DNA from: Chloroflexota bacterium
Lineage (GTDB): Bacteria; Chloroflexota; Anaerolineae; Anaerolineales; Villigracilaceae
Length of the DNA: 34,059 nt
NCBI GenBank assembly: GCA_026390015.1
Contig: JAPLGS010000072.1
Span: 1-34,059, forward strand
Direction: 5' to 3'
Shown: positions 321 through 18,008 of the stretch, piece by piece
Position numbering within the stretch: position 1 is the stretch's first letter
Layout: every line of letters begins with the position of its first letter
Notes under the pieces: generated by a model
What the model was told of the DNA's origin: nothing
The model's database searches: none
The model's input: only the letters and a program-made list of their open reading frames with translations
Translations under genes and position numbers: made by a program

Positions 321-2924
321 ATGGAACTTGGTATCGTTAGAAAAATAGACATAGACACTGAAATGCAGCAGTCGTATCTCGATTACGCCATGAGCGTAAT
401 TGTGGCGCGCGCCCTGCCCGATGCGCGTGACGGACTCAAGCCCGTCCAAAGGCGCATCCTATATGCGATGTACGACATGGGCATCCGCGCGGACACGGCT
501 TACAAGAAATCCGCTCGTATCGTGGGTGAAGTACTTGGTAAATATCATCCGCATGGCGACTCAGCCGTCTACGAAGCGATGGCGCGTATGGCGCAGGATT
601 TCTCGCTACGCACACTGCTCGTCGATGGTCAGGGAAACTTCGGTTCCGTGGATGGCGACCCGCCCGCAGCGATGCGATACACCGAAGCGCGGCTTACATC
701 CGCTGCGCTCGATATTCTATTCGACCTCAATAAAGATACCGTCGCATTTACCCCCAACTTTGACGACACTCTCGAAGAGCCAAGCGTTCTGCCGGCCGCG
801 ATTCCGAATCTTTTAGTCAACGGCGCAACGGGTATCGCTGTCGGTATGGCAACTTCCATCCCGCCACACAACCTTGGCGAGATCGTGGACGCGCTCGTGT
901 ACATGATCGAGAAGTGGGACAAGCTCGATGATATTGATGTTGAGCAATTAATGGAATTTGTGCAAGGACCCGATTTCCCCACGGGCGGAATCATCATTCA
1001 AGAAAAAGGTGAAGACAACATTGAGTCCGCGTATGGTTCGGGGCGTGGGCGCGTCACTGTGCAGGCCAAGGCGCATATCGAAGAGATGGAACGCGGCAAA
1101 AGCCGGATCATTGTCACAGAATTACCGTATCAGGTCAACAAGTCCAGTTTGATCGAGCGCATTGCCGAGCTGGCGCGTGATGGTCATCTCGAAGGCTTGT
1201 CTGATCTGCGCGATGAATCCGATCGACAGGGAATGCGCATCGTCCTCGAAATGACGAAGAACGTTGAACCCGAAACTGTGTTGCGCGAACTGTATAAACG
1301 CACGCCCATGCAAACGACATTCGGCATCAACTTGCTGGCGTTAGTCGATGGCGAGCCGCGCACTTTAACATTGAAGCAGGCATTGCGCGTTTATGTTGAA
1401 CATCGTTTAACGATCATCAAACGCCGCGCCGAATTTGATCTGGAGAAAGCCAAAGCGCGCGCGCATATCCTTGAAGGATATTTAACCGCGCTCAAGAATT
1501 TGGATGAAATTATTCAGATCATCCGCTCCGCGCCTGACGTGGAAACTGCCCGTCAAAAACTGATGAAGCGTTTCAAGCTGACAGAGTTGCAGACCAACGC
1601 CATCCTCGACATGCAGCTGCGCCGGCTGGCCGCGCTCGAACGCAAGAAGATCGAAACCGAATATAAGGAAGTTTCCACGATCATCAAAGATCTAACTACT
1701 TTGTTGAAATCTCCGAAATTAATGCGCGCCGTTGTATCGGATGAACTCCTGCGCGTGAAAGCCGCCTATGGCGACCGCCGCCGCACACAAATTGTTAATC
1801 TTAAAAAGAGTGGAAAAGGCGTAAGGTCATTGGTCGCCACAGATTTGATCACCGAACAAACTGTCTGGATCGGTGTGACAGCCGATGGAATCATAGCGCG
1901 CACACATGAAGATAAGGCGCCGCGTCCATCGGGGAATGAAGCGCCGCATTTCCTTGTGAGAGCATCATCAACTGATACACTTTATCTTGTTGCTGAAAAC
2001 GGTAAAGCCGCTGCGATTGCATTGCACACCCTGCCCGAGATCGGCTCGAATGGACATTTATCTGACGGCATTCCATATTTCAAAGCCTCACCTTTAACTG
2101 AAGAAGATAAACTCGCGGCAGTATTTTCGATGCCCGCCAAACGCTCCGAGTTCGCGCCAGAGACTTGTGTCCTCACGGTATCACGCTTTGGCATGGTCAA
2201 GAAAAGCCTAGTCACCGAAATGCCCGGGCCTTCGGCGCAGACCTTCGTTTTGGCGAGAGTCAACGAAGGCGACAGACTCGGCTGGGTGGGATTAACAGAC
2301 GGCGCGAAGAAAGATATCCTGCTGGTCACATCCCAAGGCATGGCGATCCGCTTCAAGGAAGATGATGTGCGCCCGATGGGACTCGTCGCCGCGGGGGTCA
2401 ATGGGATTAAGCTAGAAGATGGCACCGAATTGGTCGGCGCGGAAATCCTGCCCGCCGAAGGCGAGATCTTCCTGATGACATCCGATGGCAAAGCCAAGCG
2501 CGTCAGCGAAAAAGAATTCCCAACCCAGGGACGTTACGGCAAAGGCGTGAATGTCTGGTCATTGCCAAAGAAGGTCAGCATTGCGGGAGTCGCCTCGGGC
2601 AAACCGAATCACATCGCCACCATCCACACCAGCAAGGGCGCACCCAAATCCGCGAGGTTGGATGCCGCAGGGATCCGCAAGCGTGCTGCCACAAAAGGTG
2701 ATGCGATCGTGGAAGTGAAACCAGGCGAAACCGTTACATCCGTGATCGTGGCGTGGACCGTGGAGCGGTTCGTGACACTGCTGCCGAAGGGGAAAGTGGC
2801 GAAGGATGAGAAGACATCGTCCCCGAAGGGGAAGGAAGGAAAGAAGAAAGAAAAAACGGCGAAACCTGTAGCCAAGCCTGTGAAGAAGGTTTCGGTGAAA
2901 AAGCCTGCAAAGAAAAAGAAGTAA
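321..2924 (+). CDS. gyrA: Type IIA topoisomerase A subunit (DNA gyrase A / ParC family)
   Basis: This subunit cuts and rejoins DNA and would act with a GyrB/ParE ATPase that is not in this window. The 867 residues match the family length. The catalytic tyrosine is Tyr120 in RYTEARL. The quinolone pocket [10 protein letters not shown] (residues 76-85) keeps Ser81 and acidic Glu85, the wild-type pattern. A C-terminal beta-pinwheel follows from about residue 500. No clear GyrA box is present in the expected first blade (near 555); the only similar motif, QGRYGKG, is at 736-742. The last 44 residues contain 19 lysines. GGAG at 312-315 supports the ATG. The family is certain; gyrase versus topoisomerase IV is less so, and a second paralogue may exist elsewhere in the genome. 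Confidence 0.93.
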
Positions 2925-10550: not shown

Positions 10551-13500
10551 TTACTGATACGTGATCTCTTCCACGCGCCAACTTTCTTCACCCAAAACTC
10601 GCAGCAAGCGAGCAAGCAATTCGGGGCTGATGCGCGTGGTCTCGCTGGGGAAATCTATCAGGTGGCCTGTGCCATTCTCAAAAATCTGGAAAGAGAATTT
10701 ATCCCGACCATGGAATGAGATCAATGTTCCATGCAAAGTTTTAATTCTGCGCTTGTCACGTTCCTTATCTTCAGAAGCGCGCAAATTAACTGTGATCTGT
10801 TTGGGCGGATGATCCGCCTCTTCTTTTGCAAGTGGCACGTACAATGATGGCATGCGCGTAAAGGTCAACGCTTCATCAATTGATTGCGCTGGCTGCTCTC
10901 CAGGATCCTCTAAAAGCGAAGGAACTGCCGCGCGCGGCGGCGTGATGGGCTCATCTTTTTTAAATTTCGGCGCGGGTTTGGATGCGGTCGCCGCTTCGTC
11001 AAAGGAAGGCTGCCATTCAGCGTCCCAGTCATCGGGGAAGTTATCTGGCGGAGGCGGCAAGCCCTCTCCTTCGAGGGGAGTGGCTTCGTCGGCAACGTGA
11101 GTTACAGTCACTGACTGATTCACAATGGGCTTGGGTGGAATCTGCTTTGGAGGTTGAGTCGCTTTTTGGGCAGGAGCAGTTGTCGATTTGTAATGAAGCG
11201 TTGTGGCAGGCGTGGGAGGCGTCTCTGGAATTTCATCCGCGGCCGAGGTGATTTTAATCTCAGTCTTGATGACATCCACAAGAATTTTTGGCGGCAGATT
11301 CCCCATATCCACTTTGCCTTCGACAATGATGATCTGCCCGACGGTAAGGACATTTCGATAGGTGTCCCATGTTTTCGGGAAGAGCACGAGTTCGATGTTG
11401 CCTTGAATATCTTCGATGGTGACGAAGCCCATGCCTTTGCCACTTTTGGTTGTGTACGGACGAATAATGGTGACGAGGCCCGCGACGCGAACTTTTTCTT
11501 CGTGGCTGGCTTCGGGCAGCTGCGCGGAAAAATAACTAACGATCTGTGCGAGCGTGGCTTGATATTCGTTTAGCGGATGATCGGTAATGTAGAGGCCGAT
11601 GAGTTCGCGTTCCCAATTGAGCATTTCGCGCTTGTCGACATTTTTTACTTCAGGAAGATGGATCTCTTCGACAATGCCTGTTGCCGCGCCAAACAGACTC
11701 ATTTGTCCCGCGTCTGCCGCGCGGAAATGATTGCTGCTGATTGCGATGACGCGATCCAGCGAAGCGATCATGGCGGGGCGGTTGCCAAATTGATCGAGCG
11801 CGCCGACTTTGATAAGACATTCAAGCGAACGCTTGCCGACGGTGCGCAGGTCAACGCGGCGGGCGAAATCGTTGAGGTCTGTAAATTTATTTTCCCTGCG
11901 TGCCTCAATGATCGCATCCACTGCCGCTTGATTTACGTTTTTGACCGCGCCGAATCCAAAACGAATGGAAGGTTTAATTTTATTTTTGCTCTCGACGCTG
12001 TCTTCGGTGGCAATATCTTCGATCTCAAAATCCCAGCCTGATGCGTTGACATCTGGTGCGAGGACAGGTACGCCCATGTTACGCGCATCAGCCACATAGA
12101 AAGCGACTTTTTCAGTTATGCCTGCGTTGGCAGAAAGCAAGGCGGTCATATATTCGGCGGTGTAGGTTGATTTTAGATAGGCAGTTTGAACCGCGATCAC
12201 ACCGTAATCGGCGGCGTGGCTATTATGAATAAGTATGTCATTGGCGATGAAGTTGTGGGTTTCAGCGATCTCAAGATCGTAGGTTTGTTTCTCTCCGATA
12301 TATTCAATAAAAGCAATGCGATCCCAATACAAATCACTTTGTGCATAACGCTTGATGTTGGGGTCATCAAAATATTGGCCTAATCTGTTTAAAGTATTTC
12401 TGCCAAACCCGACCTTGCCAGAAGAGTTTGTGGGAGAAAATTCGCGCGGAGCAATACCTGTCGTGGCTGAAATTTCCTTCCAAGTAAGCCCTGATCGATC
12501 CTTGGCTGTGCGAATATATTCTTTTACAGCGGTCGGAACAATATCTTTTGTGCCAACTGCAATTGGGGGAAGTATCGCAGTTAGCTCAGCAAGGTAATCT
12601 CTACGTTTCTGGCTGACAAAATAACATCCTATATGCTCTAAAAAAGTAAGGATGTTTTCATAGCCTGTGACGAAGACCTGATAGCCAATCCGTCCTTCTT
12701 TATAAGGAAAATTAACAGTTCGCAAGCGGCCGATAATACCGAAGCGTAATAATAAATGCTGAAGTTGCCGGGCCATGCGTTGTGAAGAAGTGGCGTAATA
12801 TAAACTACGTCCGAGCACATCAATATGACCGTCCCCTTCCCACATACGGCTGATCATGAGCCCGATCTGGCGGTTGGTCAACTCAAAAACTGGCGCGGGG
12901 ATTTCCTTTGTGCGCGCGTTCTTGCCCAACATGTCCAGTTCTCGTGCCCATGAGAATATGCCAGGTTCAAAGCGCTTGTCTACGCGCGCGGCATAAATGG
13001 AATAAGTGTTTTTATGTGTGGCAATTGTGCATTTGACATTTTCAAACGTATCAGCGGCTTGAATGAAATCTGTAACCTGTTCTTCATCCTGGTTGTAATA
13101 ATATACAGAATGAGGGTGGCACAGATTTCCCTCTGCCAATAAATGACCGAGCGCGATCACTTCGTGGTCAGGCCATTCGTTTAGCCCTTCCACTGGGATG
13201 ATTCGTGGAACAGCGATAAATTCATCAGGTTGTAGATCATCCAATTTGCGCCAGCCGTTATATGTGTAGAAAGGATGATTACCTGTTGCTTCGATGGTAC
13301 GTCCCAGCGCTGTGGTTAAACGAAAAACAGGTTTGACACCGTTGTCCATTACCTTTGTAACCAGTTGATTCTTTAATTTTAATGCGGGAATATCGCATGA
13401 TAAAGTTTTTGTAATAGACGTGATACCACGATATAAATCTTCCATTTTTACAAGGCGGCCTGTGGACGCATCCAAAACTTCCACGTCGCCGGGCAAACAT

Positions 13501-15746
13501 TTGTTGAAACCATACCTCGCGAACTCTTCCCAATCCATGTAGATCGCATCGGCAGTGGATTGGTCCATTCCTTTTTCAACGGCGCCTTTGACGAACTTGG
13601 CGCGATGTTTATCGATATCTTCTTTTTTCTTCTTTGAGATTGCTCTGCGCAATTCGTCAGATTCAGAGGGGCTGTATCCCGCAAGTTCCACAGCGGCGCG
13701 CATCAGTTGTTCCTGATAAACAGGAATTCCATAGGTGTCCTGGAAGATCGGAGCCATATCCGGGTGGCGATATTCCACTTCCGCTTCACCGTGCATGCGC
13801 GCAATATAATCGGGAATGAAGGCCATCGGTCCCGGGCGGTACAACGCGACCATCGCGATGATGTTATCGAGATTCTTTGGTTTCATTTGGACGATATAAC
13901 GAGTCATGCCTCCGCCTTCCACCTGGAAGACTCCCGCAGTTTGTCCCGCGCCCATTAATTCAAATGCTCTGGGATCATCAATGGGAATATTGTTCAGATC
14001 AAACTTAATGCCGTGACGTTTTTCGATCATGTCGCAGGCGCGCGCCATCACGGTCAATGTGATCAGACCGAGGAAATCCACTTTCAACATGCCCAGCGAT
14101 TCGAGGATGCCCATTTCAAACTGAGTGACAGACTTGATGGGTGTTTCTTCCGAATTGGAAGTTGGGCGATGAAGTGGCAGGTAATCAAGAATTGGCTGAT
14201 CTGAGATCACCACACCCGCGGCGTGCGTGCCTGCGTTGCGAACCGTGCCTTCCATGCGCGCAGCAATATCCACCACTTCCTTGATGCGCGCGTCTGAATT
14301 ATATATTTTTTTGAACTCAACAACTTCAAGCGCGTCTTTCATGGTGGTTGCTCTACCTGAAACGAACGGAACGAGTTTTGCAACCTTGTCTATTTCGGGC
14401 AACGGCACTTCCATTACACGCGCCACATCGCGCAGGGCAGCTTTCGTTCCCATGGTGCCAAAGGTAATGATCTGCGCAACCTTGTCATTACCGTATTTTC
14501 GCGCGGTATATTCCAGCATTTCGGAACGGCGGTCGTCGCGGAAATCCAAGTCAATATCAGGCATGGACACGCGCCCCGGATTCAGGAATCGTTCAAAGAT
14601 GAGTGCGTGTTCAAGTGGGTCAACTCTTGTGATGTCGAGTGTGTAGGCGATGATCGAACCAGCGGCCGAGCCGCGCGCGTTGTACCAGATCCCATTTTCA
14701 CGGGCGAAGCGGCACAGATCCCAAACGATTAGGAAGTAAGCGTCGAATCCCATGGTGTGGACGACGCTTAATTCATATTCGAGTCTTTCCTGGACCTTCG
14801 AGCTGACGGCGTCAGCCTTGAATTTTATCTGCGCCCCCTGCTGGCACAGCGCGCGCAAATAAGTTTCGGTTGTGTATCCTTCAGGAACTGTGAAATCGGG
14901 CAGGTGATAGCCCTTGAAAGATAAGTCGACATTACAGCGTTCCGCAATGAGCAGTGTATTGCTCAACGCGTCGGGAACTTCCGAGAAAATTTTGCTCATC
15001 TCCAAAGGCGAACGCAGATAATACGAGTCGTCGCTCATCTTCATTCGTTCGGGATCCGAAAGCACGGTCTGTGTTTGAATGGCGAGCAGGATCTCCTGTA
15101 ATTTCGCGTCTTCCTGATTGATGTAATGCACATCGTTGGTGGCGATGAATCTTGCTGAATAACGCGCGCCTAAACTTAAAAGTTGTTTGTTTAAGTCCGT
15201 AATCTCTTTGATATTATGCTGCTGCAGCTCAACAAAGAATCTATCTCTGCCGAAGACTTCGGAATACCAGTCCCATTTTTTCACGGCCTCAGCGGGATTT
15301 TCGCTAAGCAGCGCACGCGGAATCTCCGCAGACATACAGCCTGAGGTGCAGATCAACCCTTCAGCGTGTGAAGCGAGAAAGTCATGGTCAATGCGCGGAT
15401 AATAATAGAAGCCATCCATTTGCGCGGCAGACGCGATCTTCAACAGATTCTTGTAGCCAGTTTCATTCTCCGCAAGCAGGAGCAGATGCGAGGAGGTGCG
15501 GTCGAGTTTCGAATCCTTATCTTTCATCCCGCGCGCCGCCATGTACGCTTCGAGTCCGATGATCGGCTTGATGTTCTCGGCTTTCGCAGCTTTGTAAAAG
15601 TCCATCACTCCGAACATCGTGCCATGATCCGTGATGGCCACCGATTCCATGTTCATCTCTTTAACGCGTTTGACCAGCTTCTCGATATTCGAGAAACCGT
15701 CGAGTAAAGAATATTCGGTGTGAACGTGTAAGTGGGTGAAGGACAT
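10551..15746 (-). CDS. dnaE: DNA polymerase III alpha subunit containing an in-frame intein
   Basis: This is the replicative polymerase catalytic subunit. The frame encodes 1731 residues; removing the intein (750-1175) leaves 1305. The PHP domain starts at FTHLHVHTEYSLLDG (3-17). Palm aspartates are Asp397 and Asp399 in PDIDLDF and Asp557 in KVDFLGL, matching E. coli Asp401, Asp403 and Asp555. After the intein come the rest of the fingers, a helix-hairpin-helix region, the OB fold (around VRVAGLVTIIRPY), a Pro/Asp-rich linker of well over 100 residues, and a terminal domain seen in other long DnaE proteins. No strong ribosome site is visible before the ATG. The coding frame is intact throughout. 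Confidence 0.96.
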   Translation of the reverse strand: MSFTHLHVHTEYSLLDGFSNIEKLVKRVKEMNMESVAITDHGTMFGVMDFYKAAKAENIKPIIGLEAYMAARGMKDKDSKLDRTSSHLLLLAENETGYKNLLKIASAAQMDGFYYYPRIDHDFLASHAEGLICTSGCMSAEIPRALLSENPAEAVKKWDWYSEVFGRDRFFVELQQHNIKEITDLNKQLLSLGARYSARFIATNDVHYINQEDAKLQEILLAIQTQTVLSDPERMKMSDDSYYLRSPLEMSKIFSEVPDALSNTLLIAERCNVDLSFKGYHLPDFTVPEGYTTETYLRALCQQGAQIKFKADAVSSKVQERLEYELSVVHTMGFDAYFLIVWDLCRFARENGIWYNARGSAAGSIIAYTLDITRVDPLEHALIFERFLNPGRVSMPDIDLDFRDDRRSEMLEYTARKYGNDKVAQIITFGTMGTKAALRDVARVMEVPLPEIDKVAKLVPFVSGRATTMKDALEVVEFKKIYNSDARIKEVVDIAARMEGTVRNAGTHAAGVVISDQPILDYLPLHRPTSNSEETPIKSVTQFEMGILESLGMLKVDFLGLITLTVMARACDMIEKRHGIKFDLNNIPIDDPRAFELMGAGQTAGVFQVEGGGMTRYIVQMKPKNLDNIIAMVALYRPGPMAFIPDYIARMHGEAEVEYRHPDMAPIFQDTYGIPVYQEQLMRAAVELAGYSPSESDELRRAISKKKKEDIDKHRAKFVKGAVEKGMDQSTADAIYMDWEEFARYGFNKCLPGDVEVLDASTGRLVKMEDLYRGITSITKTLSCDIPALKLKNQLVTKVMDNGVKPVFRLTTALGRTIEATGNHPFYTYNGWRKLDDLQPDEFIAVPRIIPVEGLNEWPDHEVIALGHLLAEGNLCHPHSVYYYNQDEEQVTDFIQAADTFENVKCTIATHKNTYSIYAARVDKRFEPGIFSWARELDMLGKNARTKEIPAPVFELTNRQIGLMISRMWEGDGHIDVLGRSLYYATSSQRMARQLQHLLLRFGIIGRLRTVNFPYKEGRIGYQVFVTGYENILTFLEHIGCYFVSQKRRDYLAELTAILPPIAVGTKDIVPTAVKEYIRTAKDRSGLTWKEISATTGIAPREFSPTNSSGKVGFGRNTLNRLGQYFDDPNIKRYAQSDLYWDRIAFIEYIGEKQTYDLEIAETHNFIANDILIHNSHAADYGVIAVQTAYLKSTYTAEYMTALLSANAGITEKVAFYVADARNMGVPVLAPDVNASGWDFEIEDIATEDSVESKNKIKPSIRFGFGAVKNVNQAAVDAIIEARRENKFTDLNDFARRVDLRTVGKRSLECLIKVGALDQFGNRPAMIASLDRVIAISSNHFRAADAGQMSLFGAATGIVEEIHLPEVKNVDKREMLNWERELIGLYITDHPLNEYQATLAQIVSYFSAQLPEASHEEKVRVAGLVTIIRPYTTKSGKGMGFVTIEDIQGNIELVLFPKTWDTYRNVLTVGQIIIVEGKVDMGNLPPKILVDVIKTEIKITSAADEIPETPPTPATTLHYKSTTAPAQKATQPPKQIPPKPIVNQSVTVTHVADEATPLEGEGLPPPPDNFPDDWDAEWQPSFDEAATASKPAPKFKKDEPITPPRAAVPSLLEDPGEQPAQSIDEALTFTRMPSLYVPLAKEEADHPPKQITVNLRASEDKERDKRRIKTLHGTLISFHGRDKFSFQIFENGTGHLIDFPSETTRISPELLARLLRVLGEESWRVEEITYQ
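12222..13499 (-). mobile_element. DnaE intein with LAGLIDADG homing endonuclease
   Basis: This 426-residue self-splicing element lies between GFNK and SHAADYG of DnaE. Block A begins with Cys1 (CLPGDVEVLD). Block B has TGNHPF at intein residues 72-77 with His75. Block F is TYDLEIAETHNFIAND (406-421), and the end is His425-Asn426 followed by Ser+1. All residues for canonical class 1 splicing are present. Two dodecapeptide motifs, ALGHLLAEGN (116-125) and IGLMISRMWEGDG (211-223), mark a LAGLIDADG endonuclease whose acidic residues look intact. Residues 335-380 look helix-turn-helix-like and may aid DNA recognition. Its codons look more AT-rich than the flanking dnaE sequence. Confidence 0.96.
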
Positions 15747-15842: not shown

Positions 15843-18008
15843 TTATCTTCCCTCGCATAAATAGCACAGCCGCAAAATTCTTAACTCATCATAATTGACT
15901 GTACCATTCAACTTGTCGTACACAGGCTTCAACATATCCGAGCCGAGTATATCGAACGCTTTGAAGACCGCCATTTGCTGGTCGGGATTGAGATTCGACA
16001 ACGCGATCAGATCCTCTGCCGAGCGCAGCGGATTGCCCGCCATGATAAACCGCGCAAGATGATTCAGGATCGTATCCACGCTGACTTCATAGCGTTTCAT
16101 TAATTCCTGAATGCTCTCGCCCGCGTTGTACGCTTCGCCCACGGTCACATATCGCCGGCCCGCATCCTTATCCGCTGTGCGTATTGGCGTTTTATATTTT
16201 TCATCAATTCTATTTGATCTGCAATAATCTTTGATGATCGCAAGAAAATCGTTTCCATATCTTTCATTTTTTACTTTCCCGACACCGTTGATGTTCAATA
16301 AACTATCACGACTTTGCGGGAAATAGGAAGACATCTCAACTAAAGTTTTATCGGAGAAAATTACATAAGGCGGGACGCCAGCCGAATCTGCCAGTTCTTT
16401 TCTTTTATTTCGAAGCAGACTGAATAATGACTTGTCATATTCTGACTCAGCAGATACTTTGCCGCGCGCGCCTGAGCGTTCCTTCTTCTGCGGCTCATTG
16501 ATCTGACCTCGAACCTGATTCCGCGACTTGAGCAGCTCCAGCCCTTTGGCAGTGATCGATAACACGCGATAGGCAGGCTCCTGATCCAACAATCCGCGCT
16601 CCACCAGTTGACGGGAAACATGCATCCACTGGCTTTTGGTTAATTCCTTTCCGATGCCATATGTGGACAGTTCATGATGATTATATTTTTCAACCTTCTC
16701 ATTTTTCGAACCCAACAAAATATCCACCACATGCGCCGCGCCGAATCTTTCCCCGCTGCGTTTGACACAGGATAGAAATTTCTGCGCCGGGATGGTGATG
16801 TCGGCGAGGTCGCTTTCTTCCATGCCACAGTTATCGCAAGTGCCGCAATTTTCGCCGACAATAGTTTCGCCGAAATAAGCCAACAGAGGTTTGCGTCTGC
16901 AAATACTTCCTTCTGCATAGCGTGTCATCGCGTCCAAATGTTGATAGGCTGCGCTACGCTCAGGATCTTCTTTTTGATCGATGAAATATCTGATCTTTGC
17001 GGCATCGCCATAGCTGTATAGTAACAAACAATGCGCGGGCAGACCGTCACGCCCGGCGCGCCCGATCTCTTGATAATAACTTTCGATATTTTTCGGCAGA
17101 TCAAAGTGGACCACGAAACGTACATTGGGTTTATTGATGCCCATACCAAATGCGATCGTCGCTACAATGATCTGTATATCGTCGCGGATAAAGGCTTCCT
17201 GATTCCGTCTGCGCTCGGAATCCTCCAGCCCCGCGTGATACGGGCGGACTGAGAATCCCTTGTGCGCCAGCGCGTCGGCGAGTTCATCCACCTGACGGCG
17301 CGAGAAGCAATAAATAATTCCAGATTGATCCTTAAAATTTTCAAGAAACTTTATGGTCTGCGCCACAGGCTCGCGTTTGGGAGTCACTTCAATGAACAGG
17401 TTCTCTCTATTAAAAGAAGACTGAAACTCGTTCGCTTGTGAAAACCCGAGCGTAGACATAATATCCGCGCGGACTCGGGGCGTGGCGGTGGCGGTCAACG
17501 CCATGCACACAGCGGATGGAAATTTCTTGCGCACATCCACCAGTTGACGATACTCGGGGCGGAAGTCATGCCCCCACTCTGAGATGCAGTGGGCTTCGTC
17601 AATCGCTAGCAGATCAAGTTTCAGCGAGGAAAGAAGCGAGTAAATTCTGGGAGTCAGTAATGTCTCAGGCGCCACATAAAGTAATTTGGATTGTCCACTT
17701 TTCACAGCGTCCACATTCTCCTGATATTCATCGGGTGAAAGTGAACTGTTGAGAAAAACCGCCGAGACGCCCAGCGCGCGCAGCTGCTCCACTTGATCTT
17801 TCATCAACGCGATCAATGGCGAGACGACAACGGTCAATCCGTCGAACAACAGCGCGGGCACCTGATAGGTGAGCGACTTGCCGCCGCCCGTGGCCATGAT
17901 GACCAGCGTGTCGCGCCGCGCCTGCACATTGGCGATGATCTCGCGCTGTAGCGGCTTGAAGGTGTCGTATCCAAAAGTGGATTTGAGAATGGATTCAGGG
18001 GTGAGCAT
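15843..18008 (-). CDS. recQ: ATP-dependent DNA helicase RecQ
   Basis: This 3'-5' helicase acts in recombination and fork repair. The 721 residues show the full RecQ plan: Walker A ATGGGKS (39-45), DEAH box (137-140) followed by the RecQ aromatic loop, helicase core 2 with ARG-finger motif GRAGRDG, a zinc site with four cysteines around residues 370-395, the RQC winged helix, an HRDC domain around 520-600, and a C-terminal helix-turn-helix module of the HTH_40 type near 620-715. It is longer than E. coli RecQ (about 610) because of that last module. The ATG has no clear ribosome site and sits 9 bases from a possible -10 box. dnaE follows after 96 bases. Confidence 0.95.
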   Translation of the reverse strand: MLTPESILKSTFGYDTFKPLQREIIANVQARRDTLVIMATGGGKSLTYQVPALLFDGLTVVVSPLIALMKDQVEQLRALGVSAVFLNSSLSPDEYQENVDAVKSGQSKLLYVAPETLLTPRIYSLLSSLKLDLLAIDEAHCISEWGHDFRPEYRQLVDVRKKFPSAVCMALTATATPRVRADIMSTLGFSQANEFQSSFNRENLFIEVTPKREPVAQTIKFLENFKDQSGIIYCFSRRQVDELADALAHKGFSVRPYHAGLEDSERRRNQEAFIRDDIQIIVATIAFGMGINKPNVRFVVHFDLPKNIESYYQEIGRAGRDGLPAHCLLLYSYGDAAKIRYFIDQKEDPERSAAYQHLDAMTRYAEGSICRRKPLLAYFGETIVGENCGTCDNCGMEESDLADITIPAQKFLSCVKRSGERFGAAHVVDILLGSKNEKVEKYNHHELSTYGIGKELTKSQWMHVSRQLVERGLLDQEPAYRVLSITAKGLELLKSRNQVRGQINEPQKKERSGARGKVSAESEYDKSLFSLLRNKRKELADSAGVPPYVIFSDKTLVEMSSYFPQSRDSLLNINGVGKVKNERYGNDFLAIIKDYCRSNRIDEKYKTPIRTADKDAGRRYVTVGEAYNAGESIQELMKRYEVSVDTILNHLARFIMAGNPLRSAEDLIALSNLNPDQQMAVFKAFDILGSDMLKPVYDKLNGTVNYDELRILRLCYLCEGR

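Follow-up and report, generated by a model that had tools for sequence, protein, structure and literature searches.

The dnaE reading frame of a bacterium from the Anaerolineae (Chloroflexota) is interrupted by an uninterrupted in-frame insertion, which raises the question of what this segment is, whether it still splices and moves, and whether its movement has left a mark in the host gene. We analyzed this locus within a window of 34,059 nt, meaning the whole stretch of DNA under study, to which all positions refer (Table 1).

A class 1-type intein in DnaE

The dnaE frame carries Pfam matches to PHP, DNA_pol3_alpha, finger, HHH_6 and OB-fold domains, and NCBIfam DnaE models flank the insertion on both sides. 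The exteins together comprise 1305 residues, the size that a preliminary description of the sequence had given for spliced DnaE. That description had also claimed an uninterrupted 426-residue insertion with Cys1, a TGNH block B, a His-Asn end and Ser+1, together with two LAGLIDADG motifs, and re-reading the window recovered each of these elements at the junction EEFARYGFNK/C...HN/SHAADYGVIA (slashes mark the splice points; Cys1 is TGT, 13497–13499). Cys1, T72xxH75, H425 and N426 are present in all 45 aligned inteins and Ser+1 follows directly, as in class 1 inteins. Two Pfam families match above their curated cut-offs, Intein_splicing (E=2.9e-25) and LAGLIDADG_3 (PF14528, E=9.1e-16), the latter falling on the second half of the nuclease, while TIGR01443 recognizes the intein C-terminus with 24.2 bits (cut-off 15.6). 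The nuclease part shows what defines a LAGLIDADG enzyme, namely two motifs with the acidic residues E123 and D223 in a two-fold fold; judged from the family, these two residues are the probable catalytic acids. By sequence, the nuclease is intact.

The preliminary description had proposed a search for intein-free dnaE alleles in close relatives, and these were found: in all 31 dnaE copies fetched from the same genus, the site YGFNK/SH closes exactly, with zero extra bases. Since these copies close at the junction, the intein frame is no chance reading, and both a chance frame and an ordinary segment of DnaE are ruled out; relatives that carry the segment as part of normal DnaE were looked for and not found. 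A split intein of the cyanobacterial type is likewise ruled out, by the single continuous reading frame and by weak similarity. The cyanobacterial DnaE inteins (Ssp, Npu) share the DnaE host and the Hint fold with the window intein, but they are split, whereas the latter is encoded without a break and holds a nuclease within it, and the sequence similarity to them (2keq, E=0.11; 4kl5, E=0.12) is much weaker than that to the DnaB mini-intein 4o1r (E=4.9e-27). Their split site lies four residues upstream of the site occupied here. We thus confirm that the insertion in this replicative polymerase subunit is an intein of class 1 type.

Table 1. Positions of the dnaE intein, its parts and two neighboring reading frames in the window.
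Feature	Position	Strand	Remarks
dnaE reading frame	10551–15746	-	1731-aa precursor; predicted 1305 aa once the intein is spliced out
N-extein of DnaE	13500–15746	-	C-terminal end ...EEFARYGFNK
Intein	12222–13499	-	426 aa, precursor residues 750–1175; 426 codons without a stop
N-terminal splicing (Hint) part	13170–13499	-	Residues 1–110; Cys1 and block B; model pLDDT 95–98
Block B TGNH	13275–13286	-	Residues 72–75; T72, N74 and H75 invariant
LAGLIDADG homing endonuclease part	12600–13169	-	Residues ~111–300; from Pfam, model and structure matches
First LAGLIDADG motif, LGHLLAEGN	13125–13151	-	E123 in 45 of 45 aligned inteins
Second LAGLIDADG motif, SRMWEGDGH	12825–12851	-	D223 in 44 of the 45 aligned inteins, replaced by Ala in L103
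C-terminal helical domain	12342–12599	-	Residues ~301–386, between nuclease and block F
C-terminal splicing part	12222–12338	-	Residues 388–426; blocks F and G; His-Asn end at 12222–12227
Ser+1 codon AGC	12219–12221	-	First codon of the C-extein; follows the intein
C-extein of DnaE	10551–12221	-	Begins SHAADYGVIAVQ...
Gyrase subunit A (or topoisomerase IV)	321–2924	+	
RecQ-type helicase	15843–18008	-	

Lineage of the intein and state of its nuclease

An AlphaFold model built with 38 sequences (mean pLDDT 92.7, pTM 0.91) lays the intein out as a Hint fold (residues 1–110 and 388–426) that encloses a LAGLIDADG nuclease (~111–300) and a helical domain (~301–386). The helical domain, for which a Pfam search gave no match of its own, is modeled with helices at 297–306, 323–336, 340–347, 351–354, 367–377 and 380–386 and is probably a small DNA-binding module. 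The top structural matches in the PDB are whole intein-endonucleases, TliVMA (7qss), PI-PfuI (1dq3), PI-PkoII (2cw7) and PI-SceI (structural E-values from 3.9e-24 to 1e-9), which likewise unite a Hint fold and a LAGLIDADG nuclease in one chain but reside in other hosts and share only 9–18% identity in the structural alignment.

The nearest named relatives comprise 38 loci from Anaerolineae and other Chloroflexota with 49–99% identity, 37 of which show the YGFNK/SH junction (the remaining one, L089, is unreadable on the C side at a contig end). Beyond these, the sequence leads to DnaB. The NCBIfam helicase-with-intein model PRK07773 matches the full length (residues 1–426) with 278.6 bits, a score under a cut-off of 780 that was set for the whole helicase, and the best PDB matches by sequence are DnaB mini-inteins (1mi8, 6frg, 4o1r). 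DnaB-hosted relatives of the same layout and 32–34% identity occur in the same genus and order; in seven genomes of the genus they sit at DLRESG/SLEQDAD, an eighth being masked there. We take DLRESG/SLEQDAD to be the DnaBi2 site. Published accounts place DnaBi2 in the H4 motif. The window intein thus resembles the DnaBi2-type mycobacterial inteins (PRK07773) and the Ssp and Npu DnaB mini-inteins along its whole length but differs from them in host and site. Since it resides in DnaE and the dnaB gene of its own genome (L191) is empty, it is a relative of the DnaB lineage rather than a DnaB intein, and its closeness to DnaB inteins, together with the DnaB-hosted relatives in the genus, indicates one intein lineage in two replication genes. 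Elements of this type are already known, though not from this location, and as an example of its type the intein is unremarkable. This DnaB-type relationship and the DNA footprint described below are additions to the preliminary description.

Sequence comparison also bears on the upkeep of the nuclease. In six pairs among four loci (L107, L108, L109 and L071, the last from the genus member G074, Candidatus Villigracilaceae bacterium AMX68), where synonymous sites are not saturated, dN/dS of the nuclease is 0.02–0.07 and about equal to that of the splicing part, which points to purifying selection on the nuclease. Could the window intein nevertheless splice with a nuclease that is already dead? 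Such decay does happen, as relatives demonstrate: the intein of L103 (G070) has shrunk to 305 aa and carries D223A with its splicing parts conserved (dN of 0.36–0.42 in the nuclease versus 0.04–0.20 in the splicing part), L102 has lost 67 residues in frame after the first LAGLIDADG motif, and further shortened inteins of 287–383 aa occur in a class-wide sample. Decay of the nuclease with splicing retained is the usual homing cycle, in which splicing must stay and the nuclease may go. The window intein, however, retains both motifs with both acidic residues and yields a complete model, and its nuclease and splicing parts diverge alike from the near copy L065, a comparison made weak by the small number of changes. 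We therefore regard a dead nuclease in the window genome as quite unlikely; the intein is intact and probably functional and competent for homing.

Distribution and the serine codon after the intein

Among 57 genomes of the genus, the dnaE intein was found in 10, and the site was read straight through in 40 (41 copies); two genomes contained only a fragment or paralogue, and five gave no match. On the DnaE tree (41 rows), its presence takes 9 changes for 10 carriers, and the carriers do not cluster, since 320 of 500 label shuffles need as few. At synonymous sites, the inteins diverge as much as the exteins or more; this comparison, in which many dS values are saturated, therefore gave no sign of recent transfer among the species sampled. 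Tested against the intein sequences, the extein tree is not rejected (p-AU 0.055), and part of the pattern is thus accounted for by old vertical descent with losses. Conversely, the exteins reject the topology of the inteins, whose own tree has poor resolution. As proof of transfer, tree incongruence is not clean, and we dropped it. The earlier suggestion that the intein may still be mobile is thus backed indirectly, by its scattered presence, the selection on its nuclease and the codon pattern that follows, while its dS and the lack of a visible recent transfer speak against it.

Serine can be encoded by AGY or TCN, and a switch between these sets takes two adjacent base changes, as stated in an excerpt of PMC6872785. 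In dnaE, the Ser+1 codon is AGY in all 10 carriers of the genus and in 13 of the 41 empty copies (Fisher 9e-5; 31 of these copies entered the tree tests, all 41 the final count). Eight tree-independent row pairs differ in the same way in 6.6 cases and in the other way in 0 (median p 0.016, range 0.008–0.125). On the host tree, the +1 serine switches set 15 times, compared with 0–2 times at 25 other conserved serine columns of DnaE; the switch is rare at other serines and frequent exactly at the intein junction. On the intein tree, built quickly from 66 distinct sequences and carrying long-branch warnings, the codon set changes 3 times versus a shuffled mean of 13.0; two rows, G134 (AGT among TCN) and G435 (TCG among AGY), depart from the pattern.

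A wider sample was drawn from the class. Across 396 genomes, empty sites are divided almost evenly (44 AGY, 45 TCN). The carrier search pattern is too loose on its own, its reversed control also matching in many genomes; retrieving 73 carrier-like matches gave 35 that bear the intein at this dnaE site, with 29 AGY and 6 TCN codons. The 73 comprise all matches with a serine codon at +1 except one (G000:C66); a carrier in which the +1 residue, or the one preceding the His-Asn end, is different would escape this count. The 66-intein tree took in 21 of the 35 as new sequences, the others being identical to inteins already in the set. In the family outside the genus, AGY occurs in 5 of 5 carriers and 1 of 7 empty copies (neither was found in 2 of 14 genomes), and two further genera of that family show AGY in the carriers found (g23, n=1; g24, n=2) and TCN in the empties found (3 and 2, respectively).

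The signal is narrow. When 106 flanking codons were scanned for differences between carriers and empties, only +31 stood out besides +1 (p ~0.01). Downstream of the junction, a rank test detects excess divergence over 50–150 codons (p 0.004 to 0.0002), but label permutation yields p 0.06–0.12 at 50–100 codons and 0.35 at 25, and nothing was seen at 15–25 codons. The excess is suggestive of a long co-conversion tract; with neighboring codons giving no signal and the label permutation failing, we set such a tract aside, although quick saturation of synonymous third positions may hide a longer one.

The pattern recurs at the dnaB site. Within the genus, AGY follows the intein in 7 of 7 readable carriers versus 7 of 42 empties (Fisher 4e-5; 42 of 43 empty copies were used, and the eighth carrier, G071, locus L210, reads N around the intein), and L026, which carries the intein in dnaB but belongs to a different family, has AGC. 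The +1 codon switches 8 times there, Ser -21 switches 5 times and four other serines 0 times, so that the +1 codon stands out less from other serines than it does in dnaE; the tree-corrected test comprises 4 pairs only (p 0.25). Taken with the 15 switches on the host tree versus 3 on the intein tree, this repeat in a second gene leads us to conclude that the codon set at +1 goes with the intein rather than the host.

This conclusion weighs on a reading by vertical inheritance with repeated loss and without homing in the genus, in which the codon association would be a chance by-product of descent or selection. The p-AU value and the synonymous divergence of the intein agree with such a history. 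Losses alone, however, leave unexplained why empty sister copies differ by a double-base change in the paired rows, why the switches number so differently on the two trees, and why dnaB repeats the pattern; the rejection of the intein topology by the extein data also argues against it, with the reservation about resolution noted above. We consider this reading very improbable.

Proposed homing repair and its alternatives

The explanation we propose would begin with splicing after translation by Cys1, Ser+1 and Asn426, which would release the 1305-residue DnaE. The embedded nuclease would cut empty dnaE alleles at YGFNK/SH, and repair from an intein-bearing allele would copy the intein together with at least the adjacent +1 serine codon, host lineages repeatedly gaining and losing the element. 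We regard this account as a whole, a DnaB-type LAGLIDADG intein in DnaE with splicing, homing and a co-converted +1 codon, as probable. A codon that follows the intein is what homing repair is expected to leave if it copies the first codon past the insertion, and, given that the association is real, we favor co-conversion as its cause with some reservation. The mobile unit would then be larger than the intein: an adjacent serine codon set would be inherited with it and flip back and forth in the host, in two replication genes, as a slow recorder of past homing that is silent in the protein. We lean towards this view.

The identical codon-intein association would also arise if the codon preceded the intein, that is, if nucleases of the AGY clade cut AGY alleles only and those of the TCN clade TCN alleles only, with hosts escaping by a silent switch. 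The 13 empty AGY copies in the genus would then be open targets, and confinement of the association to the +1 codon agrees with such a gate. It would, however, require frequent host switches before invasion, whereas the 25 other DnaE serines hardly switch at all; in genera g23 and g24, the carriers found are AGY but the empties TCN; and excerpts of two papers describe LAGLIDADG nucleases as tolerant of synonymous site changes (PMC3024317, PMC10643990). A gate of this kind is the main rival to co-conversion but seems unlikely to us as the explanation. Co-conversion and gating may both act, and if the nuclease also discriminates between codon sets, the codon may be the object of an arms race.

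Two published cases resemble the co-conversion that we favor. For the haloarchaeal MCM-d intein, an excerpt of PMC10643990 reports that the +1 residue changes from Pro to Ser between empty and invaded alleles and explains this by co-conversion; as described there, the change shows in the protein, whereas the dnaE site keeps Ser and the codon set alone changes. Mobile mitochondrial introns, according to an excerpt of PMC5378118, raise exon diversity beside their insertion site, so that there, too, repeated invasion and loss leave a DNA footprint; as excerpted, that case concerns fungi and SNP density, while the present one concerns an intein and a codon-set switch. Our search of the open-access PMC literature returned no report of a serine codon-set switch at an intein site. 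The codon footprint, hidden at the protein level, is the part worth following. If it is general, Ser+1 sites would allow past gains and losses of inteins to be traced even in genes that are now empty, and genomes could be used to ask whether a silent change of codon lets hosts evade homing nucleases.

Another DnaE intein, not related to this one, agrees with the +1 codon pattern. This 386-aa element sits upstream of the main site, at [IV]EG/SGMTR, in L108 (G005) and L112 (G012). Instead of a LAGLIDADG nuclease it contains NUMOD3 together with a stretch resembling Phage_endo_I (PD...EIKG motif; 27 bits, just below the cut-off); a PD-(D/E)XK-like nuclease would be uncommon in an intein. At the position following the insertion, its two carriers have Ser (AGC), while 38 of the remaining 39 rows read, or would be scored, as Gly. 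The exception is L121 (G015), an intein-free copy with Ser (AGT), which may be the scar left by an intein since lost. If co-conversion is true, empty dnaE alleles with AGY would be scars of past occupation, in line with this serine.

Elsewhere in the window, the reading frames for gyrase subunit A (or topoisomerase IV) and for a RecQ-type helicase gave no intein match in either. In the same genome, G000:C120 (L001, L004) contains a 1706-aa ribonucleotide reductase-like reading frame with two more inteins.
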